IMG/VR virus record: IMGVR_UViG_3300030106_006104
Coordinates: 1 to 28,226 of that record
DNA: 28,226 bases
From: a virus
Reading direction: 5' to 3' (one strand)
The first letter of the stretch is position 1. The number at the start of each line of letters is the position of its first letter. Both the position numbers and the translations under genes were made by a program. The notes beneath the pieces are model-generated. The model made no database searches. It worked only from the letters and a program-made list of their open reading frames with translations, and was not told where the DNA came from. This document shows positions 1-23,592 of this stretch, one piece after another.

Positions 1-139
1 AATCTTTCATAGAAACCAATTTAGTTTCCTCATCAAAAACTACTTTTAAATCAAAGAAGAACTCATCATTAATTTCATCTTCTTTTAAAAACTTATTTGC
101 TATAGGTTGTCTACCTAAATCTAAAAACTCTTTCTTCAT
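1..139 (-). CDS. N-terminus of a sugar C-methyltransferase-like protein (partial)
   Basis: Only the first 46 codons are inside the window; the gene runs off the low-coordinate edge. It starts at an ATG (137-139) whose bases overlap the TGA of the upstream FkbM gene (ATGA junction), which supports both start and reality. The visible protein begins MKKEFLDLGRQPIANKFL, then an acidic stretch. The 'DLGxQPxANxFL' signature is what I associate with the N-terminal domain of sugar C-methyltransferases of deoxysugar pathways (Methyltransf_13 / Methyltransf_11 / C-methyltransferase architecture). In those enzymes a CxxC zinc-binding pair normally precedes this signature; it is absent here, so the N-terminus is shortened. 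Position at the end of the glycan and phosphonate operon fits a sugar-modifying role. The family call rests on one short motif, so it is moderate at best. Confidence 0.5.
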   Translation of the reverse strand, partial: MKKEFLDLGRQPIANKFLKEDEINDEFFFDLKVVFDEETKLVSMKD

Positions 140-789
140 TTAACTAACTCCTTATTTGTAAATAATAAATCTTTCTGAACTATTGTTTCTCCATCATAGT
201 GTTCGCCAAGACTCATTCTTTCTTCAAAACCAATTTCATTCATATAATCAATAGTCTCTTCAGCTGTTGGTGCGCCCTCATTGTATTCTATAAAAGACAC
301 TTCCAATATAATCGCTTGAGCTTTACTAACTAAATCTTTACCACCTTTTAATATATCTATTTCAGAACCTTGCGTATCTACTTTTATAATATCAAATACT
401 GCATCATTTTCAAATAAATTATCTAGCTTTTGTAATGTTACTTTAGTTTCTTGTACCAATTGTGGTATATCCCAATAGTTATGTTCTTTGTAGTAAGAAT
501 TACCCTCTGTATGTGGTTTGTCACTTCGGGTGTAAAAAGTAACTTCTCTTTCTTCATCTCCCATCGATGCTATTAGATATTGGTCATTACTAAATCTGAT
601 AAGATTTTCTAAAGTTCTTTCGTGTAGTGGATTAGCTTCTATCATCCAAATCGGTACATCTGGCCAAACTCTTTTAGCCCAACCACGAAACTGACCTGAA
701 TGTGCACCTATGTCTAAAATAAAAGTGGGATGTATTCCTAATTTATCAACATCCTCTAATCTCATTGTTTCGCCAGCTCTATACGCCAT
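136..789 (-). CDS. FkbM-family SAM-dependent methyltransferase
   Basis: A 217-residue class I methyltransferase. The glycine-rich SAM motif ILDIGAHSG is at about residues 24-32, an acidic loop end (IEANP) is at 50-54, and the FkbM-typical block IKVDTQGSEIDIL is at 135-147, followed by a hydrophobic strand (AIILEVSF). FkbM enzymes mostly O-methylate sugars or natural products; the acceptor here is unknown but is presumably the glycan built by neighbouring genes. The length is normal for the core domain. The start at 789 has a GGAG ribosome site about 7 bases upstream and overlaps the end of the preceding gene by 11 bases. An internal ATG at residue 9 is a weaker alternative. The stop overlaps the start of the next gene (ATGA). 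Confidence 0.85.
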   Translation of the reverse strand: MAYRAGETMRLEDVDKLGIHPTFILDIGAHSGQFRGWAKRVWPDVPIWMIEANPLHERTLENLIRFSNDQYLIASMGDEEREVTFYTRSDKPHTEGNSYYKEHNYWDIPQLVQETKVTLQKLDNLFENDAVFDIIKVDTQGSEIDILKGGKDLVSKAQAIILEVSFIEYNEGAPTAEETIDYMNEIGFEERMSLGEHYDGETIVQKDLLFTNKELVK

Positions 790-1513
790 TGTAAATCTCC
801 AATTTCTCTACATCTTCACACACTTTTTTGATTTCATTATAATACTTTCCGTGACCTTTTGCTGGATTAGCACCCCACGGTTTGTGTAATCCAAATGGTG
901 CTTTGTCATCTAATGGATACATATAACCATTGTCTATTGAAAAGTTCAACACATCTCTTACCTTTGGTTTAGTCCTTATCCTATCTGTTACAAAATAATC
1001 CTCACAAGGATTTCCACCCCTATCTAAATATGGTTGTAATTCGTTTTTAATTATATCCAACATAAAACTTTTCTTTCTAATTGATAGTCCACCATTCATA
1101 ACCTTTGAGTAATCATTGTCTAACATATCTAATTGATTTCCCCAATAACCACCTATGTAATCAAAGTGTTCAAAGTCCTCAACTTTATGTTCTGAATTAG
1201 GACATAGCATCGTATCACATTCAAAATACAATACAGTTTCACCGACTACCTTATTCCAAAAATCTTCCGTTAGCATAATTTCCAAGCTCGAATCATCAGC
1301 AGTTATAGTGTCTATTTCTAAATCATTACAGAAAAAATCTCTGCCACCTAAATATGGATTTTCTGAAATTACTTCATCTATATAATCTAAATTATTAGAG
1401 CCGTGAAATATCTGTAAATCCCAATCTTCTGGCAAAACTGACATAACATTATTGAGAACAAAAGGTAAGGCTTTATGTTTTCTCGTTTCTACTATAACTG
1501 CTACTTTACTCAT
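779..1513 (-). CDS. DUF5672-type putative glycosyltransferase
   Basis: A 244-residue cytosolic protein. The opening (VAVIVETRKHKALPFVLNNV, then a stretch ending LQIFHGSNN) matches my memory of DUF5672, a family found in glycan clusters of bacteria and large viruses and thought to have a GT-A-like fold. A 'YFECDTMLCPNS' segment near residue 95 could be the acidic metal-binding site of such a fold. Later come YIGGYWG and NGGLSIRKKSFM, the 'G-G-L-S-[IL]-R' type segment common in these proteins. The ATG start shares bases with the TGA of the upstream methyltransferase (ATGA). Donor and acceptor cannot be read from the sequence. Fold-level assignment is fairly good; function as a glycosyltransferase is inference. 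Confidence 0.65.
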   Translation of the reverse strand: MSKVAVIVETRKHKALPFVLNNVMSVLPEDWDLQIFHGSNNLDYIDEVISENPYLGGRDFFCNDLEIDTITADDSSLEIMLTEDFWNKVVGETVLYFECDTMLCPNSEHKVEDFEHFDYIGGYWGNQLDMLDNDYSKVMNGGLSIRKKSFMLDIIKNELQPYLDRGGNPCEDYFVTDRIRTKPKVRDVLNFSIDNGYMYPLDDKAPFGLHKPWGANPAKGHGKYYNEIKKVCEDVEKLEIYNGV

Positions 1514-2235
1514 TCAAAATCCATAAAAGCTAATGTTGTTGGCCATTTATAATCTTTATATGAGTCCATCCCAACCTGTACTGTACAACTATTCATTCTT
1601 TCTCTAATATCAAGCAGCCGTTCTTTCGTTATATGTTTAGTCTCTAATATTGAACCATCATTATTTTCAAAGTCCTTCATTAAATCTAATGTTAAAGTAT
1701 CACCCTGCTCAATAACAACATATCCATATAAACTTACCCATTGGTTACTGCCAGTATGTAAATCTTCTATTACATAAATTCCATTTGATTTTAAATCATT
1801 GTAGAGAAATCCAAAAGATGTTTGTTGCTGTCTCATTGTGTGTCCGCCGTCATCTATAATAATATCAAATTCTGAACCACACTCACCACGAAAGTTATTT
1901 AAATCTTCAATATTTGATTGGTCTCCATTAAACACAATCAATCTATTTTCATCTCTGTCATCCCATCCATCAACCATTGTCAATCTTCCACCAGTGCGTT
2001 TATTAGTAACATACTCTTCATAAAGTATTCTGTTGTCAATGGCATAAACCATAGCATTTGGAAAATACTCTAACCACATTAAATGTGAACCGCCCGTATT
2101 TAAACCTATCTCTAATATCTTAGTAACATCATTTCTAATGGATTCAAATTTCTTTTCGTAATGTTTTAAATAACCTAAATCATATTTGTCACAATTGTAT
2201 TTTAAAGCTATTTCTGTTATTGATAATTCACTCAT
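1510..2235 (-). CDS. MycE-like class I SAM-dependent sugar O-methyltransferase
   Basis: A 241-residue methyltransferase. The SAM motif ILEIGLNTGGS is at residues 40-50, MWLEYFPNA at about 53-61, a GDQSN segment near 104-108, DIIIDDGGH at 124-132 and VIEDLH at 155-160. This order is characteristic of the MycE/TylE-type enzymes that methylate sugar hydroxyls of macrolides and other glycans; in that family acidic residues in the last two motifs bind a metal. It probably O-methylates a sugar in the surface glycan. A strong GGAGG site lies 8-9 bases before the ATG, and the start overlaps the stop of the alcohol dehydrogenase gene (ATGA), so it is translationally coupled to the phosphonate module. 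Confidence 0.8.
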   Translation of the reverse strand: MSELSITEIALKYNCDKYDLGYLKHYEKKFESIRNDVTKILEIGLNTGGSHLMWLEYFPNAMVYAIDNRILYEEYVTNKRTGGRLTMVDGWDDRDENRLIVFNGDQSNIEDLNNFRGECGSEFDIIIDDGGHTMRQQQTSFGFLYNDLKSNGIYVIEDLHTGSNQWVSLYGYVVIEQGDTLTLDLMKDFENNDGSILETKHITKERLLDIRERMNSCTVQVGMDSYKDYKWPTTLAFMDFE

Positions 2236-3017
2236 ACTAAAACCTCCTGTAAAACTTTCTTATCTATAAATATCTTACTCTCATTAATCTTGTCATATTT
2301 TAGAGCTTCATCTATTACCATTTCCATATCAATATTAAAATCAAATGTAAAGTTTTCATATTCATCTATTATATCACTTACATCATTATTCATAAGTTTT
2401 GAAATCTTTGGTAAGAAATAGCCTAAAGCTAATCCGTGAGATACATTATAGTATCCTGTTAAAGGATAAGAAAGGGAATGTAACAAATTAGTGCCAGCAA
2501 TTTCTATAGCTTTTCCTGCTTCACGACCAGCTCTTATTAAATCAACATTACCTCTACCTCTATTTCTTAATATTTTTAGAGCTCTGTTACAATAACCAAT
2601 ACTTTCTTCTGTAGATTTCTTTGAATTTAAACTATCCAAACAATGACTTACGACATCAAATGTAGTCTCAGCCACAACACTATATGGTAAATCTAAAAAC
2701 TCTGAATTTATAATAACATCTCTTGGCTTGTGTCTTTTTATACTACATTTCTTACTACCATCCCAATAAACAGACCAAGAAGTTTCTGTAGAACCAGCTG
2801 CTGTGGTTGGATAGCAAACTATAGGATTCTTAGCCAATATCTTCGCTGTATCTATCACAGCACCACCACCTATCGCAGTAACCTTTTCATAAGCACCAAC
2901 CTCATCTAAAATAGTGGCATCAGGAGCTCCTTTTACAACTCTAACTTTATCAAAACCATTTATAAATTTTTTAGTAGACTCCGAGCATACTAATAGTGTA
3001 CCATTATATCCTCTCAA
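2232..3017 (-). CDS. Iron-containing alcohol dehydrogenase, probable phosphonoacetaldehyde reductase
   Basis: A 261-residue group III alcohol dehydrogenase. The NAD(P)-binding GGGAVIDTAK is at 50-59, the PTTAAGSTET loop at 70-79, and all four expected metal ligands are visible: D121 and H125 (in DVVSHCLDS), H180 (LLHSLSYPL) and H194 (NVSHGLALG). Because it directly follows PEP mutase and phosphonopyruvate decarboxylase, the best substrate guess is phosphonoacetaldehyde, giving 2-hydroxyethylphosphonate, the reaction known for PhpC/FomC-type reductases. At 261 residues it is about 100 shorter than usual, mostly at the C-terminus. The start appears to be TTG inside a TTGA overlap with the upstream stop, preceded by AAGGAG. 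The fold is secure; the substrate is inferred from context. Confidence 0.8.
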   Translation of the reverse strand: MRGYNGTLLVCSESTKKFINGFDKVRVVKGAPDATILDEVGAYEKVTAIGGGAVIDTAKILAKNPIVCYPTTAAGSTETSWSVYWDGSKKCSIKRHKPRDVIINSEFLDLPYSVVAETTFDVVSHCLDSLNSKKSTEESIGYCNRALKILRNRGRGNVDLIRAGREAGKAIEIAGTNLLHSLSYPLTGYYNVSHGLALGYFLPKISKLMNNDVSDIIDEYENFTFDFNIDMEMVIDEALKYDKINESKIFIDKKVLQEVLV

Positions 3018-3469
3018 AATAACTCCTTTATTTGTTTTGTATTCTTTTCACAATCTAATTCTACTCTTCCCTTTTTACCATCTTTGCTAATTGGAATTAT
3101 ATCATCAATACCTAAATAAGAATCTTCCAATTGAGAACTGAAGAATCCACCAACTGATTCGTGGCATCCATTATCTAAAACATATACAAAAAGATTACCC
3201 AACTCTCTGTCAGCTATAGTGTGAGTTATTCCTAAGTGCATTAACAGAGCAGCATCACCACTTAAAACTACAATCTCTTTATCTGTATTAAGAGCCATTC
3301 CCAATCCGATACACGGAGCCAATCCCATACTACCTTGCATATAAAATATATTCTTATTCTTTGGATACATATCATAAACTGCTCTAGATATATAACCTGT
3401 GTTGGTTACGAATATAGCATCGGGATGTCTCTCAAAGATAAATTTTATTGCTCCTTTTCTACTTGACAT
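3014..3469 (-). CDS. Phosphonopyruvate decarboxylase, TPP-binding subunit
   Basis: A protein of about 151 residues equal to the C-terminal, thiamine-diphosphate-binding half of phosphonopyruvate decarboxylase. It shows a 'TNTGYISRA' segment, MQGSMGLAPCIGLGMAL, the TPP motif GDAALLMHLG at about 71-80 (normally GDGxxLMxxG; the second G is A here), and LDNGCHESVGG at 98-108, typical of Ppd and sulfopyruvate decarboxylase. With the preceding gene it should form a two-subunit enzyme converting phosphonopyruvate to phosphonoacetaldehyde and CO2. I place the start at the ATG ending at 3469, which has GGAG 7 bases upstream; an ATG four codons earlier lacks a ribosome site. It overlaps the upstream gene by 11 bases. 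The sulfonate analogue (ComE) is possible but less likely next to PEP mutase. Confidence 0.85.
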   Translation of the reverse strand: MSSRKGAIKFIFERHPDAIFVTNTGYISRAVYDMYPKNKNIFYMQGSMGLAPCIGLGMALNTDKEIVVLSGDAALLMHLGITHTIADRELGNLFVYVLDNGCHESVGGFFSSQLEDSYLGIDDIIPISKDGKKGRVELDCEKNTKQIKELF

Positions 3470-3848
3470 TATTGTCTCCATCCACTATTATATAATTCCA
3501 ATAACCGATTAGGTCTAACATTTGTTTATCCACCCTACCCATTACTGCGTGTTGTGGCAAAGTATGTCTGTGTCCTATTACCAACAATGGAAGTATATTG
3601 TGTGGCATACATAGACTTGTCAATGGATTTATACAATTACCAAGACCTGAGTTTTGTAGGTAGACACAACTTTTCATACCAGCTAATTCTGCACCGACTG
3701 CAATTCCAATCGCTTGCCCCTCATTAGTTGCAGGTATGTGTTCAAATTCTGATTTTTGTATCTCTTTGATAAAAGGTTTCAATCCACTATCGGGTACGCC
3801 TGTGAAGAAATTATAACCATCATCTATAACTGATTTGAGTTTAATCAT
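3459..3848 (-). CDS. Phosphonopyruvate decarboxylase, pyrimidine-binding subunit
   Basis: A 129-residue protein equal to the N-terminal (PYR) domain of phosphonopyruvate decarboxylase. It contains FTGVPDSGLKPF at about 15-26, ATNEGQAIGIAVG at 40-52 with the catalytic cofactor-activating glutamate E43, YLQNSGLGNCINPL at 63-76, and an HRHTLPQHAVMGR block at 93-105 that resembles the 'PQHxxMGR' of the family. The cofactor site would be completed by the TPP-binding subunit encoded just downstream. In most bacteria these halves are one chain of roughly 370-400 residues; here the two together total about 280. The start ATG overlaps the stop of the PEP mutase gene by 8 bases. Whether the split is natural or a sequencing frameshift is discussed under findings. 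Confidence 0.85.
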   Translation of the reverse strand: MIKLKSVIDDGYNFFTGVPDSGLKPFIKEIQKSEFEHIPATNEGQAIGIAVGAELAGMKSCVYLQNSGLGNCINPLTSLCMPHNILPLLVIGHRHTLPQHAVMGRVDKQMLDLIGYWNYIIVDGDNNVK

Positions 3849-5124
3849 TTGGTATTAACTCCAATACTTCTTTTATTGGTAGACAATTTTTACTAGCCTC
3901 ATAAGACCTTTTATTTTCTAAAATTGATTTAGCAGTATCAATCATCGCTGGATAAGAACTTCTCAATAAATGATTAGCATAAATAACCACATCAACTCCA
4001 ATATCAATTAATTGTTTTTCTACCACTTTATTATAAGTAGATGGTACAACTACCAAAGGAACTTTTTTCTTAAACTTTTTATAGTGTTCACAAAAAGATA
4101 GTATTTCAGAAACATCTTCACTCTTACTATGAATCATAATACCATCAGCTCCACTATCTATATAAAGATAAGCTCTATCAATAGCATCAACAACTCCCTT
4201 TCCTAAAATAAAACTTTCTATACGAGCTATAATCATAAAGTCTTTTGTAACTAATGTTTTCTTACCCTCTAATATTTTATTGGCAAATTCACTTGGTTTA
4301 TCTTGCGTTTGATTGGAAGTATCATCAAATAGAGAGTTTCTTTTTGAACCAATCTTATCTTCAATTATTACTGAAGATACACCCATTCGTTCTAAAGTTC
4401 TTATCGTAAACTTAAAATGTTCAATCATCCCACCATTATCCAAATCGACAATCATTGGTTTTGTTGTCACATCAAATATCTCACTCAAAGTTTGACTAAC
4501 TGTGGTTATATCTACATACTGATTATCTGGCTTACCTTTAGATGCTGAGTGAGTTAGGCTACTCAACCACATAGCATCAAACTCATCATTACCAACCTTT
4601 GTCTTTTCTACAATCAAACCAGTCAATCCATTGTGAGCTTCTAAAACTCTCACTATCGGTTTCGACTCTATCAATCTTTTCAACATCTTTCTTCTTACAT
4701 CAGGAGTAGTTCCAATTTCTTTTAAATGATTGTGTAATTTAGTAGATGATACTCCTTTTGTGTATGGAACATCAATAACTACACCACCCCACTCTTCTAA
4801 TTTATCAATCACTCCTTGCCTAACTTGCTTTTGAACTCCCTCTTTCCAATCATCTCCGTGCACCACATATTTTGGTTTTAGTTCTTCTATATTAGGTATA
4901 TAATCCAATGTCTTTTGTGGTATAACTTTACTGACACCGACTATATTCTCTACAACTATTTTTCTTTCTTCGTAACTTAAAGCAGGTAGTCTTTTGTAAC
5001 TAGCTATAGCAGAATCAGTAAGTAAACCAACTGTAACATCTCCGTATTTTTTAGCTTCCTTTATTATATTAAGATGTCCGTGATGAATTAAATCAGCACA
5101 CATTCCAACATAAACATCACTCAT
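3841..5124 (-). CDS. pepM: Bifunctional cytidylyltransferase / phosphoenolpyruvate mutase
   Basis: A 427-residue fusion. Residues about 1-140 are a CTP-transferase-like domain: HHGH at 14-17 (the HxGH nucleotide site), an ATP/CTP-site-like TKGVSSTK at about 123-129 (compare RTxGxSTT of ethanolamine-phosphate cytidylyltransferases), and YVVHGDDW before it. Residues about 150-427 are PEP mutase: EAHNGLTGLIVE near 162, MIVDLDNGG at 224-232 and the diagnostic mutase loop EDKIGSKRNS at 255-264 (consensus EDKxxxKxNS, which separates mutases from isocitrate-lyase-like hydrolases). The enzyme should form the C-P bond (PEP to phosphonopyruvate) and activate a phosphonate as its CMP derivative. I prefer the ATG at 5124, preceded by AGGA and overlapping the upstream stop by 8 bases, to an ATG 12 codons earlier. 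Confidence 0.93.
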   Translation of the reverse strand: MSDVYVGMCADLIHHGHLNIIKEAKKYGDVTVGLLTDSAIASYKRLPALSYEERKIVVENIVGVSKVIPQKTLDYIPNIEELKPKYVVHGDDWKEGVQKQVRQGVIDKLEEWGGVVIDVPYTKGVSSTKLHNHLKEIGTTPDVRRKMLKRLIESKPIVRVLEAHNGLTGLIVEKTKVGNDEFDAMWLSSLTHSASKGKPDNQYVDITTVSQTLSEIFDVTTKPMIVDLDNGGMIEHFKFTIRTLERMGVSSVIIEDKIGSKRNSLFDDTSNQTQDKPSEFANKILEGKKTLVTKDFMIIARIESFILGKGVVDAIDRAYLYIDSGADGIMIHSKSEDVSEILSFCEHYKKFKKKVPLVVVPSTYNKVVEKQLIDIGVDVVIYANHLLRSSYPAMIDTAKSILENKRSYEASKNCLPIKEVLELIPND

Positions 5125-6304
5125 CAGCTGTTTTCCTAAAATACCATTCCCAAGGCCCATCCAAAAGATGTTGTTTTAATTCTGCACCAATGTGATATTG
5201 TGGTACATTTGGTGTATCGATAGTATTTTCTGTTTTGTTATAGATAATAATTCTTTCTTCTTGATTATGAAATTGTCTTTTATGTGCGTTTGGTGAATGA
5301 TTTACATATTGTATATACCGATGTTCATCCAAAGCCTTTATAGCAGATACTGTTGAAGCAAAGTTAGGGCTAACAGCACTTCTTCCATCTTCACGAACAT
5401 AAATTCTATTCATATCCAAATCTGACAAAACATCATTTGGTAAAGGGATATATTCTTCATCTTCCTTACTTGTATCGTATACTCTATTTAGAACTGTGTT
5501 CTTAAAATCATCACATCCTATTATTTTTTTAGTTACTTTTTGATTAGATATATTATCTTTAACACCACACCAAGCCAACCAAGAATCTGGTGGTGGCATC
5601 ATCTCACTAATATTATGTGGTTCTCCGTGGTCTGCAAATACCCAAAACAAAGAATCTGGTTCTTCAAAATCCATTTGTTTTATCATATCAGCGTACATAT
5701 CTATTATAGCATCTGAAGTAGATGGAATATCAGTTCCACCATATTTAATAAATTTACCTCTAGAAGCATCGTGGTAATGATTCCACTTCAAAACTATAAG
5801 ATGATTTGTATCTTTATCAAATTTTTCATCTATTTTCAAATCAGGACCTACTCTAACTTTTGGTATATTTTGCATCTTCTTCATAAAATTATCTTCATCG
5901 TGCGAATCATCGTAATTATAATATCGCATATTATTTGTTCTACCACATATATCATCAGGTAAAAGTTTGAAACTAGGATTAGAAACATCACCTGTTCCGT
6001 GGTCTCCTCTAGTCAATGGCATTGAATGAATATGTATCGCCCAATCATCAGGAATCATATGAAATAACATCTGTTCATCCCACACTTTTTTATCTGATAC
6101 TAATCTATCGTATGTATGTGAGTGACCAACTCCACCTATTCCGTACATCTCCGTTGGTGTCTTACCACTAAACATAGTTATAAGAGTTGGTACAGTAGAG
6201 CTACAAGTTATGTGGTCTGAAAATTCCACTCCTTTACTGCGAAAAGCATTTACTATTCTTCCATCTCTCGGAACTGTATCCATTAGTATACAATATATTT
6301 TCAT
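5117..6304 (-). CDS. Alkaline-phosphatase-superfamily (sulfatase/phosphotransferase-like) protein
   Basis: A 395-residue protein without signal peptide or membrane helix. Superfamily hallmarks: an early aspartate in LMDTVPRDG (D9), the nucleophile-region CSSTVPTLITMFSGKTP at about 34-50 (T37 likely catalytic), HYHDASRG at about 176-183, and FADHGEPHN at 223-231 supplying the D-H metal ligands. Family members hydrolyse or transfer phosphate, phosphonate or sulfate esters (sulfatases, phosphonate monoester hydrolases, phosphoethanolamine and glycerol-phosphate transferases). It sits immediately before, and overlaps by 8 bases, the PEP mutase gene, so a role in transferring or removing a phosphonate or phosphate head group is a reasonable guess. 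The lack of membrane segments argues against a classic EptA- or LtaS-type enzyme. Specificity is unknown. Start follows CGGAGAATATA. Confidence 0.7.
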   Translation of the reverse strand: MKIYCILMDTVPRDGRIVNAFRSKGVEFSDHITCSSTVPTLITMFSGKTPTEMYGIGGVGHSHTYDRLVSDKKVWDEQMLFHMIPDDWAIHIHSMPLTRGDHGTGDVSNPSFKLLPDDICGRTNNMRYYNYDDSHDEDNFMKKMQNIPKVRVGPDLKIDEKFDKDTNHLIVLKWNHYHDASRGKFIKYGGTDIPSTSDAIIDMYADMIKQMDFEEPDSLFWVFADHGEPHNISEMMPPPDSWLAWCGVKDNISNQKVTKKIIGCDDFKNTVLNRVYDTSKEDEEYIPLPNDVLSDLDMNRIYVREDGRSAVSPNFASTVSAIKALDEHRYIQYVNHSPNAHKRQFHNQEERIIIYNKTENTIDTPNVPQYHIGAELKQHLLDGPWEWYFRKTADE

Positions 6305-7065
6305 TATATTCTCCGTTCTAAATAGTGGTCTTGTACAGCATCGTGACCAACGTGTAATATTATTTCATTTCCACAACCTACGTGCCCAACACCAACTCCC
6401 CATTGTTTTGGCATTGGATACGGATATACTCCTGTATTCCAAGCTGCTCTGGTTAATTGTAAAGGACCCCTCTTTGGATTCTCTTTCATCAATCTAAGAA
6501 ACTCACTTAGATAAGCCCTGCCTCTATTATCTTCTGTGAGAAAGCCTGTCCACCACAAATCATAAGTCAATATATTGCCACGACTTTCATCTTCTCCGAT
6601 ATGATAATCTCCATCATTTCCACGAGTATATAATCCATCGACTTTAACCATTTGTCTTTCGTTTTGTGGACAACAAATTCCAAACTTTTTTATTATTGGC
6701 ACTAAAGTTTTAACTTCATCTGAAACAAACATCAAATCAGAATCCATCGCTATAGCTACATCTGCTGTAGATTCAAGTAAACCTTTTATCTGATAGTAAT
6801 CACAACAATGGTAGCCCCATTTTAACTTACCACTACCCTCTCTGTAATCTTTATCGAAAGGTGTTGATTCAGAATCTATATGTCTAACTTCCACATCGTA
6901 TCCATCTCCAATAGATTCATCATCACTATAACAAATTATATTAGCTTCGGGAAAGAAAGATTTTACACTCTGATAAGTTGGGTCTAATCTACCTATAGGA
7001 TTTGACCACTTCTGATTTGCTTTGTCTCTACTGCCAAATTCTGCAAAAATTATATCTAAACTCAA
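6304..7065 (-). CDS. Putative GT-A-type glycosyltransferase
   Basis: A 253-residue soluble protein with IIFAEFGSR at the N-terminus, a FFPEANIICYSDDES strand-turn near residue 40, and AIAMDSDLMFVSDEV near residue 105, which has the D-x-D acidic pattern that binds metal and nucleotide sugar in GT-A enzymes. A tryptophan-rich segment (LWWTGFLTEDNRGRA) and a late NTGVYPYPMPKQWGVGVGH stretch fit an acceptor-side region. No named family is recognised with certainty. The start is apparently TTG in a TTGA overlap with the GT9 stop, with AGGAGG about 6 bases upstream. It lies between the heptosyltransferase and the alkaline-phosphatase-like gene, so it most likely adds a sugar to the same glycan. Confidence 0.55.
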   Translation of the reverse strand: MSLDIIFAEFGSRDKANQKWSNPIGRLDPTYQSVKSFFPEANIICYSDDESIGDGYDVEVRHIDSESTPFDKDYREGSGKLKWGYHCCDYYQIKGLLESTADVAIAMDSDLMFVSDEVKTLVPIIKKFGICCPQNERQMVKVDGLYTRGNDGDYHIGEDESRGNILTYDLWWTGFLTEDNRGRAYLSEFLRLMKENPKRGPLQLTRAAWNTGVYPYPMPKQWGVGVGHVGCGNEIILHVGHDAVQDHYLERRI

Positions 7066-8204
7066 TACGTTCCTCCTAATAAAACTCTTCTTATAGATTT
7101 ATGTACATCTTTAGCTGATATTAAACTCATACATTTACCATCATAAGGACACGGAAATTGGTCGTAACAATTTAAACAATCCAACTCCTCTCTAACCAAC
7201 TTAATTCCTAAACCAAAAAGGTTTACTTCTTGATGTGGTGTCGGACCAAAAAAACTAACTATCTTTGTTCCTAATGAAATAGCCATATGTAAAGCAACTG
7301 TATCTCCTGTGACAATAACACTTGCCATTTTAATTAAATAACTAAACTCTTCTAATGTATAATTATCTGTTAGGTTTATTAAACTGTCTGATTTATTTTC
7401 CTCATACAATTTTTTATTTAACTCAACTTCAGATTTTGAACCACACAGTAAAACAACACACTCACTATTTTTTGATAAAAGTTTTATAAGTTCATTGTAT
7501 CCATCATAAGTCCATTTCTTATGTGGGTAGACAGGTCCACAACCAGTGTTTAGTATTACTAAATCTTTTACATACAAAGGCTGTTCATTATCATCGTCAT
7601 ATAGAAATTTTGATTCAAAGTTTTTGAACTTAACAGAATCTAATTCAAAAAATGGTTTCTCCATATCATAATCTAACTCAGCCATTTCAAATATCAACTC
7701 TTGATAGCTCTTTGTATTTTTAGTTTTTCCACCCCAATTATCCAAACAAATATTGTAGTGATATTTAGCCCCATCGTTCAAAGGTGTGGCGTGCCCCTCA
7801 GAACTTAAACCATAACCTCTCTTATCTTCCGAATTAAAAGACATCATCATTGATGTGGCTTTTGGGTCTTTATCTAAATTTATAATTGTATCAAATTTTT
7901 CAAATTGTAATTGTCTTACTATTTCAGTATTGTATTCTAAAACTCTATCTACAAATGGATTTGATTCTACAAAAAACATAGCATCTTTTACAGTAATCCA
8001 ACTTAACTGGCAATTAGGATACTTCTTTTTAATTCCCTCTGCTAGAGCAGTTGCTCTAACCACATCACCTAAAGCATCTAATTTTATTAATAGTATTCTT
8101 TCGTTATATGGATTATGGTGTTCACATTCAAAACAATCCCAAGACCTATCTATCCAATAATATTTGCAAGGTCTGTCTCCTTTGAAATGTCTACATGCTT
8201 TCAT
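7062..8204 (-). CDS. Family 9 glycosyltransferase (ADP-heptose:LPS heptosyltransferase-like)
   Basis: A 380-residue GT-B protein. It opens with a cysteine cluster (C4, then CRHFKGDRPC and CFEC) within the first 27 residues, likely a small zinc-binding module seen in some GT9 proteins. Next comes the GT9 signature RILLIKLDALGDVVRATAL and PNCQLSWIT. The C-terminal half has VILNTGCGPVYPHKKW, VVLLCGSKSE, VTGDTVALHMAISLGTKIV and FFGPTPHQE, the standard donor-binding block (D-T/S-x-x-x-H-x-A). A CLNCYDQFPCP segment near the end adds more cysteines. GT9 enzymes transfer heptose from ADP-heptose to LPS core; the directly preceding gene is an HldD-like epimerase, which makes ADP-heptose the probable donor. 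It overlaps both neighbours. Confidence 0.85.
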   Translation of the reverse strand: MKACRHFKGDRPCKYYWIDRSWDCFECEHHNPYNERILLIKLDALGDVVRATALAEGIKKKYPNCQLSWITVKDAMFFVESNPFVDRVLEYNTEIVRQLQFEKFDTIINLDKDPKATSMMMSFNSEDKRGYGLSSEGHATPLNDGAKYHYNICLDNWGGKTKNTKSYQELIFEMAELDYDMEKPFFELDSVKFKNFESKFLYDDDNEQPLYVKDLVILNTGCGPVYPHKKWTYDGYNELIKLLSKNSECVVLLCGSKSEVELNKKLYEENKSDSLINLTDNYTLEEFSYLIKMASVIVTGDTVALHMAISLGTKIVSFFGPTPHQEVNLFGLGIKLVREELDCLNCYDQFPCPYDGKCMSLISAKDVHKSIRRVLLGGTY

Positions 8205-8994
8205 TGAGATATTCTTTGTATTTTTTTATCCCCTTTTCCAAATTGTATTTTGGTTTCCACCCATCCATAAATTTCTTCTCATCTGATTTTGTATAGAACT
8301 GATAGCCTTTTGGTATTTCATACTCACCTTTATATTCATATGGTATTTCCATTAGTTCTAATACATCCTCAAACGATCGAGCTTCACCACTACCAACTTC
8401 ATATACACCGCAAGGAATATCATTAAACAAAGGATACAAAGTGGCATCAACAACATCATCTATATAAACAAAATCTCTCAGAGGTTTTTTGGGAAATAAC
8501 ATAAACCTACCAACTGAATGGGCTTGGTGTGCTACGGAAGCCATCTTACCTTTATGTTCTTCTCCAGGTCCATACACGTTGAAATATCTAAGAGCGTAGA
8601 AGTCATCAAGTGCAGCAATTCCATACTCTTCAGCTATGTATTTAGACCACCCATAAATATTTGATGGTAATCCTTTGTCGCCAGTATTAGCAGCAGATGA
8701 TGAATAGACAACTGTTTTCTCATATATAAATGCCAAATCAAACAACTCTTTACTAAAAACATAATTGTATTTTAACATTTCATTTGGGTCTTTCAACATA
8801 GTATCAGAAATAGCACCGATATGTAATATAACATCTGATTGTTCCACAGCCTTAGATAAAGTGGTTTCCCAACCAATGTGATTCATATAATCTTTTTCAA
8901 TACAAGTTATGCTACTGACATCTTCTATTGTTTTTAGTTTTTTATATACACTCTTACCAACAAATCCCTCTGAACCAGTTAAAAGTACTCTCAT
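8191..8994 (-). CDS. hldD: ADP-heptose 6-epimerase-like (HldD/RfaD) extended SDR
   Basis: A 267-residue NAD(P)-dependent extended short-chain dehydrogenase. The Rossmann motif GSEGFVG is at residues 7-13, the active-site SSSAA at 98-102, and the Y-x-x-x-K pair is Y114/K118 in SNIYGWSKY. The substrate-binding ALRYFNVYGPGEEHKGKM block, the LRDFVYIDDVV segment and the YQFYTKSDEKKF C-terminal block all match ADP-L-glycero-D-manno-heptose 6-epimerase rather than generic UDP-sugar epimerases. It should convert ADP-D,D-heptose to ADP-L,D-heptose. At 267 residues it is somewhat shorter than the roughly 310-residue cellular enzymes. ATGA overlap with the upstream gene, GAGGAG upstream of the start; it feeds the GT9 enzyme encoded next. 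Confidence 0.8.
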   Translation of the reverse strand: MRVLLTGSEGFVGKSVYKKLKTIEDVSSITCIEKDYMNHIGWETTLSKAVEQSDVILHIGAISDTMLKDPNEMLKYNYVFSKELFDLAFIYEKTVVYSSSAANTGDKGLPSNIYGWSKYIAEEYGIAALDDFYALRYFNVYGPGEEHKGKMASVAHQAHSVGRFMLFPKKPLRDFVYIDDVVDATLYPLFNDIPCGVYEVGSGEARSFEDVLELMEIPYEYKGEYEIPKGYQFYTKSDEKKFMDGWKPKYNLEKGIKKYKEYLNESM

Positions 8995-9797
8995 TTATAT
9001 AACTCCTCATATACACGTTTCATCCAATAAGTTCTATCTCTTCCAATTTCACTTGGTGGTATAGCATTGAACTGATAAACCCAACCTGAATTGTAAAGGT
9101 TTGTTAAACTATCTTCCCAAAAACAATCTGGATGCCAATGAAATAATTGTTTCCTAACCATATCCATCATACCAAATTGTCTCGGTAAAAGTTTCATCTC
9201 TAAACCAAACTCTTTTCTCATACAATTCATTAGTGTTATATCACTACCAGTTAGTAATATATCATACGAATCGATAATTTTTTGTTTGTTTTCTTCATAA
9301 AAATCAAATACTTTATCGAAGAACTTTTGATGCTCTGAATTAATAATAACAAAGCCAGTTTGAAAGAACTCAAAAGATGGTATACAAAACTCTTTGTTCC
9401 AAAACATTTTAGAGTAACCATTTATAGCTCTGTTAATCCATTCAAAGTCACCATCAGTTAATGTGCTTGTGAATTTACCATCCGTCATCTCAAAGAAATT
9501 AGGACAATCAGGATGAACTATTGAATCAGCATCGACAACTAATACTTGGTCGTAGTCTATTTCATTATGTTCTAATATATTTAAGACTTGCCATCTTTGC
9601 CAAGTTATTAACATTTCAGATTCATCACATAATAAGTCTGACATAATATAGACTTCGTGACCATTTTTTTTAGCCCACGCTTTCCAAGAGTTTATACCAT
9701 ACTCATAACCTTGATGTCTGTTTGAATGTCCAATGCTTGATTTGCCAGTCAAATCTTTTTCTCTTTTTATGTAGGGTATAAAAATTATATTCTTCAT
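8991..9797 (-). CDS. Putative GT-A glycosyltransferase
   Basis: A 268-residue soluble protein. It contains WAKKNGHEVYIMSD near residue 40, then YDQVLVVDADSIVHPDCP near 85-100, where DADS is a typical DxD metal site of GT-A transferases. A second half has FFQTGFVIINSEHQKFF, the 'G-F-x-x-x-N/S' segment common after the DxD in GT8- or GT34-like enzymes, and DSYDILLTGSDITLMN. Tryptophan- and histidine-rich FHWHPDCFWEDS follows. The fold call is good, the exact family and sugar are unknown. ATGA overlaps at both ends place it in a tightly coupled series with the DUF616 protein and the heptose epimerase. Confidence 0.65.
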   Translation of the reverse strand: MKNIIFIPYIKREKDLTGKSSIGHSNRHQGYEYGINSWKAWAKKNGHEVYIMSDLLCDESEMLITWQRWQVLNILEHNEIDYDQVLVVDADSIVHPDCPNFFEMTDGKFTSTLTDGDFEWINRAINGYSKMFWNKEFCIPSFEFFQTGFVIINSEHQKFFDKVFDFYEENKQKIIDSYDILLTGSDITLMNCMRKEFGLEMKLLPRQFGMMDMVRKQLFHWHPDCFWEDSLTNLYNSGWVYQFNAIPPSEIGRDRTYWMKRVYEELYK

Positions 9798-10480
9798 TTC
9801 TTTCCTATGTGTGCTCCAGTACTTCTATTAAAATATTCATTGTCTCTGGAATCTCCATCCATATAATTAAATTTCAGATTGTTCTTCCAAGCACAATAAT
9901 TAAAACTTAACTGGTCTCTCTTACTACCATATTTAATTTCTGTCCACCAATCTTCCATTGTTTCTATACAATCTTTTTCGTTGTGTCTCCTTAAAATAAC
10001 CATACCAGTAATTAATCCATTGTCTTTTGGAAACCCCACCATAGAATATTTAGTCATCTGTTTTTGAATCAGATAAGGATCGTCTTTGTAATTCAACATA
10101 CCTCTTTCAGGTGTAAGTTTCATATTCTTAGCTCCCAAATCAAGTATGGTTTGAGCTTCTTGATAAGGACAATTTCTAGCATCTAAATAATTGTTATTGT
10201 GACTAAAGAAAGCGACATTAGAATCCTTCAAATATTTATCCACCAACTCATCTAAGTTTCCTACGACACTCATATTCCCATCTATAAACACACTGTATTC
10301 GTAATCTTTTAAATATCTATGTGGTAAGACTTTGAACTTCTTAGCGTTCCTATTATTATCTTCGTATATTGGCATATGTGTTTCTTCACTAAAACATTTC
10401 CAATCCCAACCATCAGAACTCTGCTCTACAACATTGTCATATCCACCGAATACAGAAGTGTAAATTATACGCTCTGACAT
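9794..10480 (-). CDS. DUF616-type putative glycosyltransferase
   Basis: A 228-residue protein resembling DUF616 (the TOD1/MUCI70-type glycosyltransferase group). Signatures seen are IIYTSVFGGYDNV at the start, AKKFKVLPHRYLKDYEYSVF and IDGNMSV around residues 46-71 (the characteristic K-x-x-P-H-x-x-L-x-x-Y-x-x-S-x-x-x-D-x-x block), a GLITGMVILRRHN segment and KRDQLSFNYCAWK near residue 190. Members occur in bacterial polysaccharide clusters and large phages. It presumably acts on the same glycan as its neighbours. Start ATG lies in the end of the preceding fusion gene (16-base overlap) after a GAGGGT-like site; the stop overlaps the next start. Confidence 0.7.
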   Translation of the reverse strand: MSERIIYTSVFGGYDNVVEQSSDGWDWKCFSEETHMPIYEDNNRNAKKFKVLPHRYLKDYEYSVFIDGNMSVVGNLDELVDKYLKDSNVAFFSHNNNYLDARNCPYQEAQTILDLGAKNMKLTPERGMLNYKDDPYLIQKQMTKYSMVGFPKDNGLITGMVILRRHNEKDCIETMEDWWTEIKYGSKRDQLSFNYCAWKNNLKFNYMDGDSRDNEYFNRSTGAHIGKK

Positions 10481-11907
10481 ATTATACCCTCATAATCTTT
10501 TAACACTTTGTTTTGTGTTGTGGGATAGAAAGTTCCTTTTAACTGTCCTATCTTTTTCAAAACTTTTAACTTACCCATATTAACATACTCATCTATACAT
10601 TGTTTTAAATCAGGAAACAAACCATAATCATCAAAAGCAATTATAGTTCCCTTTCCAAATTTTAGAGCATTTTCTATATCACTTTTTATGTGAGCATAGT
10701 CGTGAACACAATCTATAAATACAGCATCCATCTTACCAAATTGTTCCCAAGATTGTGTGTACACATCCATCACAACATAATGTATGTTATGTCTATCAGA
10801 ATTTAATTGCTTTGATTGTTCGTGTCTTTCATATAGATTGTCTAATGCTGTAACTTCTCTAAACAAATGGCTCAACATTTTTGTACTATGTCCTAATGAA
10901 GAACCAACTTCTAAAATTGACATAGATTTATATTTGTCATCACTAAAATAGTTAATAAAATCGGCTTTGAATTTCTTACTAGTTGTAGTTTTAGATTCAG
11001 ATTTATCGGGCAACCCATTTAATATTGACCTAACTTTACTATCTGTTAAATAAATTTCACCTCTGACAAAATTACCAGCCAAAGGAAATTGTCTCTGTAC
11101 AGAAAATACATCTGAATATCTGACTAACAATTGTGATGTACCACATTGATTGCCGACATTGTATCTAGCTTTAGATTTGATATAGAGTTGCATTCTAACT
11201 GGCATATGTCTCATATCCAAAGCCTTATCAATAAAATTAAATGAAGTTTGTTCAATTGGTCTTTCTGTCCAATAGAAATGTTTTATGGTTGGGTCTATAA
11301 CACCCTCTATCAATCTATCCATAGAGTAATCATATCTATCTGATATAAGTAAACAACCGAAGTCTTTCCCATCAGTATATTCATTGATAATTTTATCACC
11401 CATCTCCATTTCTTCTTCACTAAAATATATCTCTGGCTTAGAGTCTGACAATTCATCTTTTTCGAACTGCCAAAACTTTAACATTTGTTCTACCAATGGA
11501 ATATCGGCACAGTTTTTATCATAAACTCTATAGTGGTCGTGAAATATCTCATCACCTACACTATCTACAAAATCATCCACATATGGATTATGTTTGAATA
11601 CATTGATTGCATTTTCAAAAGGGTCTTTCCAAGTTCCCCATTGGTCACCAATGTCTCCACAGATTTTTTCTAATAATTTTACTGATGGAACATACACCTT
11701 ACAATTTGGATACTTCTTTTTCAATAATTTGGGCATCGCTGATATGATTGCCCAATCACCAATTCCGTGACAAGTTCTCATAATTGTAAATTCACCTTTT
11801 TCAAGATATTCATCAGGAATCCTAATTCCCTCAGATTCTTCAAAACCTAAGTTCTCAACTTCGCCAGAGTGATATAATTTGTCACCCACAATTCTAAAGA
11901 AAATCAA
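10465..11907 (-). CDS. Fusion: GT9-like glycosyltransferase domain plus C-terminal SAM methyltransferase
   Basis: A 480-residue two-domain protein. The N-terminal part (about 40-300) has MRTCHGIGDWAIISAMPKLL followed by KKKYPNCKVYVP, reminiscent of the N-terminal domain of family 9 glycosyltransferases (G-x-G-D-x-x-x-x-x-P-x-x), and a degenerate donor-side region (NVGNQCGTSQLLVRYSDVFS). After a linker rich in serine and threonine (about 300-312) comes a methyltransferase: ILEVGSSLGHS at 331-341, VTALDN, and VFIDCVHDYAHIKSD at 396-410, the Methyltransf_24-like block, then IIAFDDYG. It could both transfer and methylate a sugar residue. The start is apparently TTG in a TTGA overlap with the GT2 stop, with a strong AAGGAG upstream. 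The methyltransferase call is firmer than the GT call. Confidence 0.65.
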   Translation of the reverse strand: MIFFRIVGDKLYHSGEVENLGFEESEGIRIPDEYLEKGEFTIMRTCHGIGDWAIISAMPKLLKKKYPNCKVYVPSVKLLEKICGDIGDQWGTWKDPFENAINVFKHNPYVDDFVDSVGDEIFHDHYRVYDKNCADIPLVEQMLKFWQFEKDELSDSKPEIYFSEEEMEMGDKIINEYTDGKDFGCLLISDRYDYSMDRLIEGVIDPTIKHFYWTERPIEQTSFNFIDKALDMRHMPVRMQLYIKSKARYNVGNQCGTSQLLVRYSDVFSVQRQFPLAGNFVRGEIYLTDSKVRSILNGLPDKSESKTTTSKKFKADFINYFSDDKYKSMSILEVGSSLGHSTKMLSHLFREVTALDNLYERHEQSKQLNSDRHNIHYVVMDVYTQSWEQFGKMDAVFIDCVHDYAHIKSDIENALKFGKGTIIAFDDYGLFPDLKQCIDEYVNMGKLKVLKKIGQLKGTFYPTTQNKVLKDYEGIICQSV

Positions 11908-12575
11908 GTTCCTCTCCTTACATTCATCTCTGCACTAAAGTTTTGATTATAAAAGATATTTTGTTTTTCTTGTTTATCTATAGTTTTTGGATGATATAAG
12001 CTCAACTCCTCTTGTGGTGGCAAATGTGCGTAAGTTTTACAACCAGTGATATATTCGTGAAGTGGTCTTGTCCATCTTATGTTTTTATCATTACGAAATA
12101 CACGCGCTTGATAATCAGGATAATTTACCCAACCATTCTCAGAGACTTTCCATCCCCATCTATCTATATGTTTTTGTTCCATATCATCAATGGTATTTAC
12201 TCTTGGCACCCAAATTAAATCAACACCCTCATTCATCTCCAATATTCTATGTAATTGTAAAACTAAAAAATTGTGTGGATATTCATCAGCATCAATGTGA
12301 AATATGTAATCACCTACTGCGTTTTCTATAACTGAATTTTTTTGAGCAGAAAAGTCTTTATTAAGTTTCCTCTGATATACTTTCATCATTTTACTATGAG
12401 CATATTGTTGAGTCCAACTATCTAATACGAATCTTACTGCGTCATCTTCACCATTTGTATCATCGATACAAACTATTATTTCATCTTCAGAATTTGTCTT
12501 ATGTACTAATACCTCTAATAACTTATTTAATTCATCAGCCTCATTGTGTACTGTAATCCCATAACTAATTTTCAT
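11904..12575 (-). CDS. Family 2 glycosyltransferase (WaaE-like)
   Basis: A 223-residue GT-A enzyme. It begins ISYGITVHNEADELNKLLEV, the classic GT2 opening; the acidic segments IIVCIDDTNGED and GDYIFHIDADEYP (the DxD-type motif, about residue 95) are clear, followed by WVPRVNTIDD and YQARVFRNDKNIRW and then RPLHEYITG, as in LPS-core beta-glucosyltransferases of the WaaE type. It is short for the family, with no membrane anchor. It overlaps the preceding hypothetical gene by 11 bases and ends in a TTGA overlap that starts the next gene. Donor sugar unknown. Confidence 0.85.
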   Translation of the reverse strand: MKISYGITVHNEADELNKLLEVLVHKTNSEDEIIVCIDDTNGEDDAVRFVLDSWTQQYAHSKMMKVYQRKLNKDFSAQKNSVIENAVGDYIFHIDADEYPHNFLVLQLHRILEMNEGVDLIWVPRVNTIDDMEQKHIDRWGWKVSENGWVNYPDYQARVFRNDKNIRWTRPLHEYITGCKTYAHLPPQEELSLYHPKTIDKQEKQNIFYNQNFSAEMNVRRGT

Positions 12576-12978
12576 TCTTCAACTCTTCTACAAATTGTGT
12601 TGGTAGTCTTAAATCCTCTAAAAATACTTGACTCTTTTTAGCTTTTTCTAAGGTATAAGTTCTGTAAATATCGTGTCTTTTAATTAGTCTTTTTAATCTA
12701 CTATAAACTGCTTTTGAAGTTCCATCCAATAAAACTTTGTATATCTTTTTATTTTCATCAACTATCTGAGTTTCTCCAGCTTTCTCTAATAGCTTTTTGA
12801 TTTCTCTATTAGTGGGAACATTAGATACTTCTAACTGAATTCCGTGTAATAACTTTTTTCTATTAGGTTCTAAAACAAGTATAGTTCTACGAAGTCTCCT
12901 ACCCTCTTTTGTTTCATAAACAAATGATATAATATCACCAGCACTAACTTTTGCCCAATTATATGGTAGTTTAGCCAT
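12565..12978 (-). CDS. Phage protein of unknown function, basic
   Basis: A 137-residue, lysine- and arginine-rich protein I do not recognise. Residues about 10-36 (VSAGDIISFVYET then RRLRRTILVLEP) look like a small beta-barrel of the KOW or SH3 kind, and the C-terminal half is predicted mostly helical with a basic run (YSRLKRLIKRHDIYRTYTLE). No signal peptide, membrane segment or catalytic motif is visible. It overlaps the zinc-ribbon gene upstream by 8 bases and the GT2 gene downstream by 11. Nucleic-acid binding is possible from the charge, but that is only an impression. Confidence 0.6.
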   Translation of the reverse strand: MAKLPYNWAKVSAGDIISFVYETKEGRRLRRTILVLEPNRKKLLHGIQLEVSNVPTNREIKKLLEKAGETQIVDENKKIYKVLLDGTSKAVYSRLKRLIKRHDIYRTYTLEKAKKSQVFLEDLRLPTQFVEELKNEN

Positions 12979-13438
12979 TGTCTTTTATTATTCCCATAGC
13001 TTTACAGGCTTCCATAAATTCAAATTGTCCAAACTTTTGTGGATTCTCAACATCCAATCTTTTTTCGTGACCATCGTATTTATGTCTTTCTTCTTCAGGT
13101 ATTTCTACAACTGAAGCGTAGTACCAATGCCAATTACTGACATCACCCTCTGGATAAATTACTCCCTTTTCTCCCATATTAATTACAGATGGAAACCAAA
13201 CTATACCTCTTTTTTTATCAAAAATCTTTAAATCATTCATCAGTTTAGTATGGCTTTTCGTATACTCTTCTAACTTTTCACTATCGAATGCCAAATAAGA
13301 ATTTGATGTCATACCACATTGAAAACATATGTAAGAATCAAATGGTTTACCCTCTATCTCTGTTGATTCTACGAAACAATTACTGTGCATCTCTGCACAT
13401 AAAGGACAATCTGTTTTTACTTCTACGTGTTCTGACAT
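12971..13438 (-). CDS. Unknown protein with N-terminal zinc ribbon
   Basis: A 155-residue protein. CPLC at about residues 11-14 and CFQCG at about 38-42 form a likely four-cysteine zinc ribbon. The rest has a WFPSVINMGEKGVIYPEG stretch and an acidic YDGHEKRLDVENPQKFGQFEF segment, ending in a helix (FMEACKAMGI). I do not recognise a family. It lies one base after the stop of the GT4 gene and before the basic unknown protein; the pair breaks the run of glycosyltransferases, so these may be phage housekeeping genes rather than glycan enzymes. Confidence 0.6.
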   Translation of the reverse strand: MSEHVEVKTDCPLCAEMHSNCFVESTEIEGKPFDSYICFQCGMTSNSYLAFDSEKLEEYTKSHTKLMNDLKIFDKKRGIVWFPSVINMGEKGVIYPEGDVSNWHWYYASVVEIPEEERHKYDGHEKRLDVENPQKFGQFEFMEACKAMGIIKDNG

Positions 13439-13439
13439 A

Positions 13440-14783: not shown

Positions 14784-14791
14784 TCTAACTC

Positions 14792-19022: not shown

Positions 19023-19052
19023 AATATACACATTTTTATGTATACAAGTCAA
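19023..19052 (-). promoter_or_regulatory. Sigma70-like promoter before the Nmad1 gene
   Basis: Minus-strand TTGACT (19052-19047), an 18-base spacer and TATATT (19028-19023), about 24 bases before the Nmad1 start. The -35 lies inside the last codons of the Mom-like gene. The spacer contains TATACA...TGTATA arms, a possible operator. The ten bases AAAGCTTGACTT are shared with the candidate promoter before the DNA polymerase gene. Confidence 0.5.
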
Positions 19053-23531: not shown

Positions 23532-23552
23532 TTTCACTCCTTATGTAGTTTT

Positions 23553-23572: not shown

Positions 23573-23592
23573 GTTTTTATTTTCAAAATCAA
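23564..23592 (-). promoter_or_regulatory. Weak sigma70-like promoter before the clamp gene
   Basis: Minus-strand TTGATT (23592-23587), 17 bases, then TATATA (23569-23564), about 33 bases before the clamp ATG. The -35 overlaps the polymerase stop codon. Such AT-rich matches arise easily by chance in this genome. Confidence 0.3.

Follow-up and report, generated by a model that had tools for sequence, protein, structure and literature searches.

The virus record IMGVR_UViG_3300030106_006104, analysed over its full length of 28,226 bases (the window), carries four overlapping open reading frames (ORFs) on its minus strand, at 3841-5124, 3459-3848, 3014-3481 and 2232-3017. A reading made earlier from the letters alone (the sequence-only reading) had claimed four consecutive overlapping phosphonate genes at 2232-5124; all four ORFs are present and their Pfam and NCBIfam families agree. 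It had also named an EDKIGSKRNS loop, HHGH and TKGVSST in a fused first gene, both halves of a phosphonopyruvate decarboxylase (Ppd) and an iron-type dehydrogenase with four metal ligands, and each of these is recovered below. Carriage is not unique to the window: modules with phosphoenolpyruvate (PEP) mutase occur in 28 further IMG/VR contigs from 26 datasets, designated here by locus numbers (L) where needed. The module suggests that the phage encodes a whole miniaturised pathway to a phosphonate activated with cytidine monophosphate (CMP), and that the predicted product, CMP-2-hydroxyethylphosphonate (CMP-HEP), decorates a phage-specified glycan; a probability of about 0.7 is given to this reading.

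The four-gene module

The ORF at 3841-5124 (427 aa) encodes a cytidylyltransferase (about 4714-5124) fused N-terminally to a PEP mutase (about 3847-4683), the architecture of Fom1. The frame is open from 5160, and the ATG at 5124 agrees better with the relatives. The mutase scores 367.2 bits with the NCBIfam PEP mutase equivalog TIGR02320, above the curated cut-off of 319.55, and its loop EDKIGSKRNS fits the PEP mutase motif EDKxxxxxNS. In the PDB this half matches 1m1b_A (151 bits), and a phmmer alignment to this PEP mutase retains the DxD pair, the EDK..NS loop, an Arg and a His; an Asp of 1m1b that is Ala in 1s2u is retained as well. Kinship with hydrolases or isocitrate-lyase-like enzymes, which the sequence-only reading had named as fatal to its claim, was rejected on the NCBIfam scores (phosphonopyruvate hydrolase 124.7 bits, methylisocitrate lyase 95.9). 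The N-terminal part, with HHGH and TKGVSST, matches CTP_transf_like (PF01467) at 53.9 bits (cut-off 21) and PDB 5x3d_A at 188 bits, with 58.8% identity over 136 residues. We take 5x3d_A, an entry titled only phosphoenolpyruvate phosphomutase, to be the cytidylyltransferase domain of Fom1.

The next two ORFs divide between them what in the compared cellular loci is one Ppd ORF, mostly of 370-400 aa stop to stop. Both score best with TIGR03297: the N-terminal half (3459-3848, 129 aa) gives 113 bits over profile positions 2-122 and TPP_enzyme_N 28.3 bits (cut-off 26.8), and the C-terminal half (3014-3481, 155 aa) gives 95.8 bits over 171-285 and TPP_enzyme_C 38.4 bits (cut-off 21.9). Neither half reaches the whole-protein cut-off of 312.5. 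Since only these two parts of the 360-position profile are matched, the enzyme is small as well as split, and on its sequence it is read as a split relative working like a Ppd. The Ppd comparison covers the window and 22 of the 28 contigs, omitting L118, L133 and the near copies L001, L010, L011 and L109. Split Ppd is found in 22 of 23 viral rows and in 0 of 71 cellular rows; the split decarboxylase is a virus type. All 22 viral split rows keep the Glu of NEG and the second Asn of the GD..N motif; 15 have GDA and seven GDG, the form present in all 71 cellular rows. A quick Ppd tree of 95 rows puts the 22 split rows on one side with support 91, and 20 of them group at 100 on a stem of 1.45; the program flagged long-branch attraction as a risk between L120/L121 and the rest of the viral rows.

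That long stem is one reason for considering that Ppd and the dehydrogenase, both divergent, now catalyse a different reaction, such as a sulfopyruvate-type decarboxylation, and that the end product is not HEP. Against the sulfopyruvate decarboxylase beta model the C-terminal half reaches 90.6 bits, near its 95.8 for Ppd, and the motif HESVG is lost in L120 and L121. This is judged quite improbable: HESVG is kept in the other 20 of 22 viral split rows, the window among them, the N-terminal half prefers Ppd (113 against 75.1 bits), and split Ppd is linked to PEP mutase in 25 of the 28 viral mutase contigs, the exceptions being L118 (none found), L123 (a single, cell-like ORF) and L133 (the contig ends).

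The fourth ORF (2232-3017, 261 aa, TTG start) encodes a short iron-type alcohol dehydrogenase, predicted to be a phosphonoacetaldehyde reductase. Its best model, TIGR03405 (Phn_Fe-ADH), gives 64.3 bits, far under the cut-off of 423.7; Pfam ADH_Fe_C gives 29 bits (cut-off 27). The metal ligands D121, H125, H180 and H194 and the nucleotide motif GGGAVID are present, and the pattern D, H, H, H is found in 21 of the 22 window and viral rows printed, the gene being broken in L114. At the second ligand place, Gln stands in 10 of the 11 cellular dehydrogenases printed (L022-L031 and L033) and His in the viral ones. Dehydrogenase genes occur in 26 of the 28 contigs, the broken one included, and are missing from L133 and L220.

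Nei-Gojobori dN/dS, the ratio of nonsynonymous to synonymous change, was taken from unsaturated pairs among the window, L002, L004, L007, L008, L105 and L109, and indicates purifying selection on the core genes in these seven contigs (0.03-0.26, values that are rough because many dS exceed 1): 0.07-0.12 for the fusion, 0.03-0.23 and 0.10-0.21 for the N- and C-terminal Ppd halves, and 0.15-0.26 for the dehydrogenase.

In the proposed pathway, PEP mutase would convert PEP to phosphonopyruvate, and the two-subunit decarboxylase would pull the reaction forward to phosphonoacetaldehyde. The short dehydrogenase would reduce this to 2-hydroxyethylphosphonate (HEP), and the N-terminal half of the fusion is predicted to cytidylylate HEP to CMP-HEP. 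Enzymology of 2-HEP-CMP quoted in PMC8158854 and PMC6697681 makes four such genes sufficient for CMP-HEP. By Pfam, none of the 19 genes of the surrounding cluster is a pyridoxal-phosphate aminotransferase, as had been claimed, and the earlier preference for the hydroxyethyl over the aminoethyl branch stands; CMP-HEP as the product is a prediction from gene content. Dehydrogenase-linked and transaminase-linked cellular homologues are told apart by seven cytidylyltransferase columns, and at five of these (columns 7, 35, 39, 75 and 127) the window has the dehydrogenase-type letter, a weak test because nine of the 14 transaminase-linked rows are one Bacillota clade.

Several points weigh against this pathway. 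The other two separating columns, 57 and 149, carry the transaminase-type letter in the window, and column 57 does so in the Fom1 segment too. PF01467 cytidylyltransferases include a phosphonoformate enzyme, as described in a passage of PMC6697681, so the specificity for HEP is not certain. The Ppd matches leave profile positions 123-170 and 286-360 uncovered, and the dehydrogenase falls more than 100 residues short of most cellular ones (50 matches, in ORFs that span 333-608 aa between stops, mostly 370-390). On account of these uncovered parts and this shortness, the activity of Ppd and of the dehydrogenase is assumed.

The upstream neighbour and the glycan cluster

Directly before the mutase gene, in the window and in contigs of its type, lies a gene (5117-6304 in the window, minus strand, 395 aa) for a candidate phosphonyl transferase or esterase, a gene on which the sequence-only reading made no comment. 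It has no Pfam or NCBIfam match, and its sequence matches in the PDB were at chance level (best SidE, E 0.049) and were set aside. A first AlphaFold2 model from seven sequences was poor (mean confidence, pLDDT, 52.9) and was not used in the fold search; the model from 14 aligned rows reaches pLDDT 84.8 and a predicted TM-score (pTM) of 0.88. With this model, Foldseek returns YejM/PbgA, sulfatases, LtaS and the phosphonate monoester hydrolase 4upk (85 matches at E <=0.001), and VIA-align returns YejM and sulfatases (highest Z 22.2, over 305 residues), so that the modelled protein has the alkaline-phosphatase superfamily (ALP) fold. D9, T37, H178, D225 and H226 are invariant in the 14 aligned rows and H336 is kept in at least 90%; these are presumably the nucleophile and metal ligands. 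Its dN/dS is 0.18-0.36 (six contigs).

This protein would most likely move the phosphonyl group from CMP-HEP, the donor, onto a glycan of the surrounding cluster. In some other phages the same transfer would be done by enzymes resembling CDP-glycerol transferases or LicD, and the virion or the infected cell would end up bearing a phosphonate-capped glycan. A shared CMP-phosphonate donor would predict just such differing transferase-type genes at one position. A CDP-glycerol glycerophosphotransferase-like (Glyphos_transf) gene lies directly upstream of the fusion in L108 (68 bits), L109 (identical protein) and L009 (23.7 bits, cut-off 22.1). LicD matches lie directly upstream in L110 (37 bits), directly after the dehydrogenase in L119 (22.7 bits, cut-off 22.6) and one gene off in L114 (35.2 bits), with L116 assigned by its similarity to L114. 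The ALP-fold gene is found in 14 carriers (L001-L008, L010, L011, L105, L115, L133 and L220); in L115 and L133 its place is after the fusion, and only its last 113 residues are present in L003. Altogether 21 of the 28 contigs have an ALP-fold (14), Glyphos_transf (three) or LicD (four) gene touching the module or one gene away. At the left end of L003, an opposite-strand 444-aa ORF (66-1815) abuts the shortened gene and could mark a chimeric contig end or a real breakpoint.

It is distinctly possible, if doubtful, that CMP-HEP is made and that the ALP-fold protein is a hydrolase of phosphonate or phosphate esters, or a nucleotide-type phosphodiesterase, which trims or recycles, with a host enzyme or an unassigned cluster gene performing the transfer. 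Such a fold is as compatible with hydrolases as with transferases, and sulfatases and 4upk stand beside LtaS among the structural matches. The gene is retained in L131, from which the four genes are cleanly gone, and a distant relative occurs without mutase in three other contigs, so the protein may act without the pathway. More generally, some findings weigh against the proposed transfer and decoration: no ALP-fold match was found near any of the 80 cellular clusters compared, seven of the 28 viral contigs (L112, L113, L118, L120, L121, L122 and L123) have no ALP-fold or transferase-type gene within one gene, and the figure of 21 stands without a chance expectation, LicD and Glyphos genes occurring in glycan clusters anyway (LicD-type in 12 and Glyphos-type in four of the 80 cellular loci). 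Transfer by the ALP-fold protein is favoured by the recognised transferase-type genes at its position in other phages. It is favoured also by L008, where a single 801-aa frame (8885-11290) joins the ALP-fold protein to the cytidylyltransferase-mutase, though in one contig this could be a sequencing error, and by L138, a contig with no mutase, where a distant relative (23%) touches a stand-alone nucleotidyltransferase.

The module lies within 19 minus-strand ORFs, mostly overlapping or abutting, that run from 16204 down to 136. Below the module, Pfam identifies an FkbM methyltransferase (136-789), a DUF5672 protein (779-1513) and, below the cut-off, a methyltransferase-like protein (1510-2235). 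Above the ALP-fold gene, Pfam and NCBIfam identify a GT9 heptosyltransferase-family protein (7062-8204), an ADP-heptose-epimerase-like protein (8191-8994), a TOD1/MUCI70 glycosyltransferase domain (9794-10480), a 480-aa protein with a methyltransferase domain (10465-11907), a GT2 glycosyltransferase (11904-12575) and two Glycos_transf_1-like proteins (13440-14783, below its cut-off, and 14792-16204), all on the minus strand. The cluster ORFs at 6304-7065, 8991-9797, 12565-12978 and 12971-13438 have no Pfam match. A YspA/cpYpsA-type SLOG family protein (16791-17261) lies beside the cluster.

This setting bears on a further alternative, in which the pathway yields a phosphonate that is free or lipid-linked (a phosphorus store, signal, small inhibitor or phosphonolipid) and not a glycan decoration. 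No acceptor is identified, and in Streptomyces CMP-HEP is an intermediate to a diffusible antibiotic, as stated in a part of PMC8158854. The alternative is nevertheless unlikely. The cluster of 19 genes has five glycosyltransferase-family matches, one below its cut-off; none of its genes has a radical SAM, B12-binding or cupin/epoxidase-type Pfam match (E 0.01); and glycan-type genes flank the module in several other carriers.

The other end of the window carries T4-type phage replication genes, also on the minus strand. PHROGs assigns a clamp-loader family protein (19671-20129), a clamp loader (21125-22063), a processivity factor (22815-23537) and a DNA polymerase (23589-26084), the families of these four being phrog_225, 168, 223 and 262, and an exonuclease is also called. 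The module had been placed on the same strand as gp43/44/45/62, and the polymerase, processivity factor and two clamp-loader families do share its strand; in T4 these functions carry those gene numbers. Two Mom-like DNA modification proteins (phrog_1384; 19036-19668 and 22051-22815) lie among the replication genes, and a 616-aa ORF (26196-28046) has no PHROGs match at E 0.001. The T4 late promoter pattern TATAAATA has 10 matches against 6.41 expected, with as many in 17 of 100 shuffles, which is no notable excess, and no tRNA genes were found in the window.

Recurrence and origin of the module

A first scan of IMG/VR gave 18 loci with the full fusion in 11, and all 11 have the four genes in order. 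An alignment-based scan raised the carriers to 26 contigs, and L133 and L220 were recovered by scans with the neighbour protein; the resulting 28, of up to 189,182 bases, exclude the window. In L120 and L121 the order is N-terminal Ppd half, C-terminal half, dehydrogenase and fusion. In L220 (4001-8851) there are a stand-alone mutase that at 232.3 bits stays under the cut-off of 319.55, split Ppd, a stand-alone nucleotidyltransferase and, in the place of the dehydrogenase, an aminotransferase-like gene whose best match is 2-aminoethylphosphonate aminotransferase (155 bits, cut-off 360.8), with the ALP-fold gene one gene off the mutase. On the 77 kb contig of L123, labelled viral, the module (9911-13430) is cell-like, with separate mutase and nucleotidyltransferase, single-ORF Ppd and a longer dehydrogenase. 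L013 (9267-11795) has PhyH, nucleotidyltransferase, iron-type dehydrogenase and LicD genes in a row and no PEP mutase in its 116,897-base contig.

Two faecal GenBank records named 'Bacteriophage sp.', MT837901 (L020) and MT836947 (L021), match at about 50% and were kept out of the viral count because MT836947 has a transaminase and single-ORF Ppd. Both are short and unverified, and the aminoethylphosphonate cluster of MT836947 looks bacterial and is probably not from a phage.

Misassembly joining the module to phage genes had been named beforehand as a finding that would undo the claim. The contigs are metagenomic, phage hallmarks were confirmed on only 14 of the 28 carriers (elsewhere the virus label is that of IMG/VR), and the cell-like module of L123 and the possibly chimeric end of L003 point the same way. 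Recurrence speaks strongly in the other direction. Window bases 1-15160 match L010, and 51-15160 match L001, at 99.9% identity, in two longer contigs from two datasets. With this 15 kb repeated and modules in 28 contigs, an assembly chimera or cellular contamination is judged very unlikely. A window-like polymerase (64-100%) is present on nine of 26 carriers tested, and five further carriers have tail, terminase or portal genes: tail sheath and baseplate with L109, terminase, portal and polymerase with L121, terminase with L115, L120 and L122, and a T4 portal with L115. The PHROGs scan of large contigs covered 10 of the 172 listed ORFs of at least 200 aa, 6 of 97 on the contig of L109 and 4 of 17 on that of L121. 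Terminase_6N was found in 3 of 25 and Portal_T4 in 1 of 25, and Gp23 capsid in one of 11 records, the mutase-less contig of L013. In most carriers these families are either absent from the sequenced part or too divergent.

Most of the viral fusions also group together. A quick maximum-likelihood fusion tree of 105 rows (23 viral, 80 cellular and the two faecal records) places 16 viral rows, including the window, in one clade with SH-aLRT 98; the viral label needs four changes, of which starred branches force only one. The viral rows are the window and 22 of the 28 contigs, omitting the same near copies and, because the mutase is unfused there, L123 and L220. The cellular rows are the best 80 of at least 577 loci; of these, 50 have a dehydrogenase match and 13 a transaminase, the dehydrogenase-linked kind being commoner.

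Relatives of the polymerase show where the module sits. Among 68 polymerase-relative loci, 11 non-carrier contigs that continue for about 19 kb or more past the polymerase in the downstream direction were chosen. None of the 11 (one contig of 164,845 bases, the rest fragments) gives a match to the mutase half; two have a weak nucleotidyltransferase-like match. The 480-aa cluster protein is kept, at least partly, in nine of them; the glycan cluster is therefore common property, with the phosphonate module apparently an optional part of it. The flanks of L131 (4100-4300) match those of L105 (10000-12793) at 95.5% over 5177 bases and 96.4% over 1641 bases; the four genes are absent from L131, the 3' end of the dehydrogenase is left behind and the upstream neighbour is kept.

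A broader interpretation is offered tentatively, at somewhat less than even odds: that this is an old, widespread, virus-specific cassette in which tailed phages make a C-P bond by means of a mini-decarboxylase of two genes that was seen in none of the compared cellular clusters, a next enzyme swapped for hydroxyethyl- or aminoethylphosphonate, and a new ALP-fold class of CMP-phosphonate:glycan transferases that puts groups resistant to hydrolysis on virions or infected cells. Phosphorus is committed when a C-P bond is made, and the purifying selection on the carried genes therefore suggests that the phage truly gains from them, perhaps through surface groups that withstand phosphatases. Viruses would be added to the possible makers of phosphonates. 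Because the gene set is small and separable, it also opens the unknown transfer step of phosphonate tailoring to testing.

Comparison with known systems

No tailed phage with PEP mutase was found described in the open-access literature searched, most subscription papers lying outside that search. The statement of the sequence-only reading that no described phage carries such a route stands to that extent and gives way in part to Cobalt Borg gene 308, reported in a passage of PMC12660748 as a likely PEP mutase-cytidylyltransferase fusion. Like the module of the window it lies in a region for glycoconjugates on a virus-like element; unlike it, the element is archaeal and extrachromosomal and not a tailed phage, and the passage mentions neither decarboxylase nor dehydrogenase. 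A 2026 reservoir study (PMC13188868) reports viral genes for phosphonate degradation and pepM only among community genes, and a term search of Lockwood et al. (PMC9381506) gave no mention of viruses. Acker et al. hypothesised, in a passage of PMC8931226, that phosphonates at the surface shield bacteria against grazing and against lysis by viruses; with this pathway, phages would put the same surface chemistry on the other side.

The closest cellular counterparts in gene order are clusters of fused cytidylyltransferase-PEP mutase, Ppd and iron-type dehydrogenase in Neomarinimicrobiota, Ignavibacteria, Bacteroidota and others, seen in many of the 80 loci, with fusions 56-66% identical to that of the window. 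They differ in having single-ORF Ppd and dehydrogenase and in having no ALP-fold neighbour found; the compact form that most of the viral carriers have is not seen in them.

Among ALP-superfamily transferases, LtaS has a fold like that of the 5117-6304 model (Foldseek E 1.6e-5 to 2w5r) at just 12-13% identity over the aligned part. LtaS-like transfer, rather than hydrolysis, is a candidate function suggested by the gene neighbourhood. In the fosfomycin system, Fom2 is the decarboxylase and FomC the iron-type dehydrogenase. Fom1, a cytidylyltransferase-PEP mutase fusion that makes CMP-HEP, acts with these two in Streptomyces to convert PEP to 2-HEP-CMP, according to passages of PMC6697681 and PMC8158854. 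The window proteins are counterparts of all three, with the likeness of the N-terminal half of the fusion to 5x3d_A noted above; they differ in the split, short Ppd, the short dehydrogenase and the setting in a phage glycan cluster, where homologues of Fom3, FomD and Fom4 were not found among the 19 genes (Pfam, E 0.01). Bacterial phosphonyl-tailoring (Pnt) clusters, in the part of PMC6697681 that describes them, likewise join PEP mutase to a nucleotidyltransferase near LicD-like or glycan genes; the two characterised PntC enzymes belong to PF12804 and use aminoethylphosphonate (AEP), whereas the window has PF01467 and is phage-borne. The AEP transaminase of an AEP-making Pnt cluster was not found in the window cluster by Pfam, and the relative L220 has an aminotransferase-like candidate for it. 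The chemistry is known from bacteria; what is new, and supported here, is a strengthened case for glycan decoration together with a virus-type split decarboxylase.

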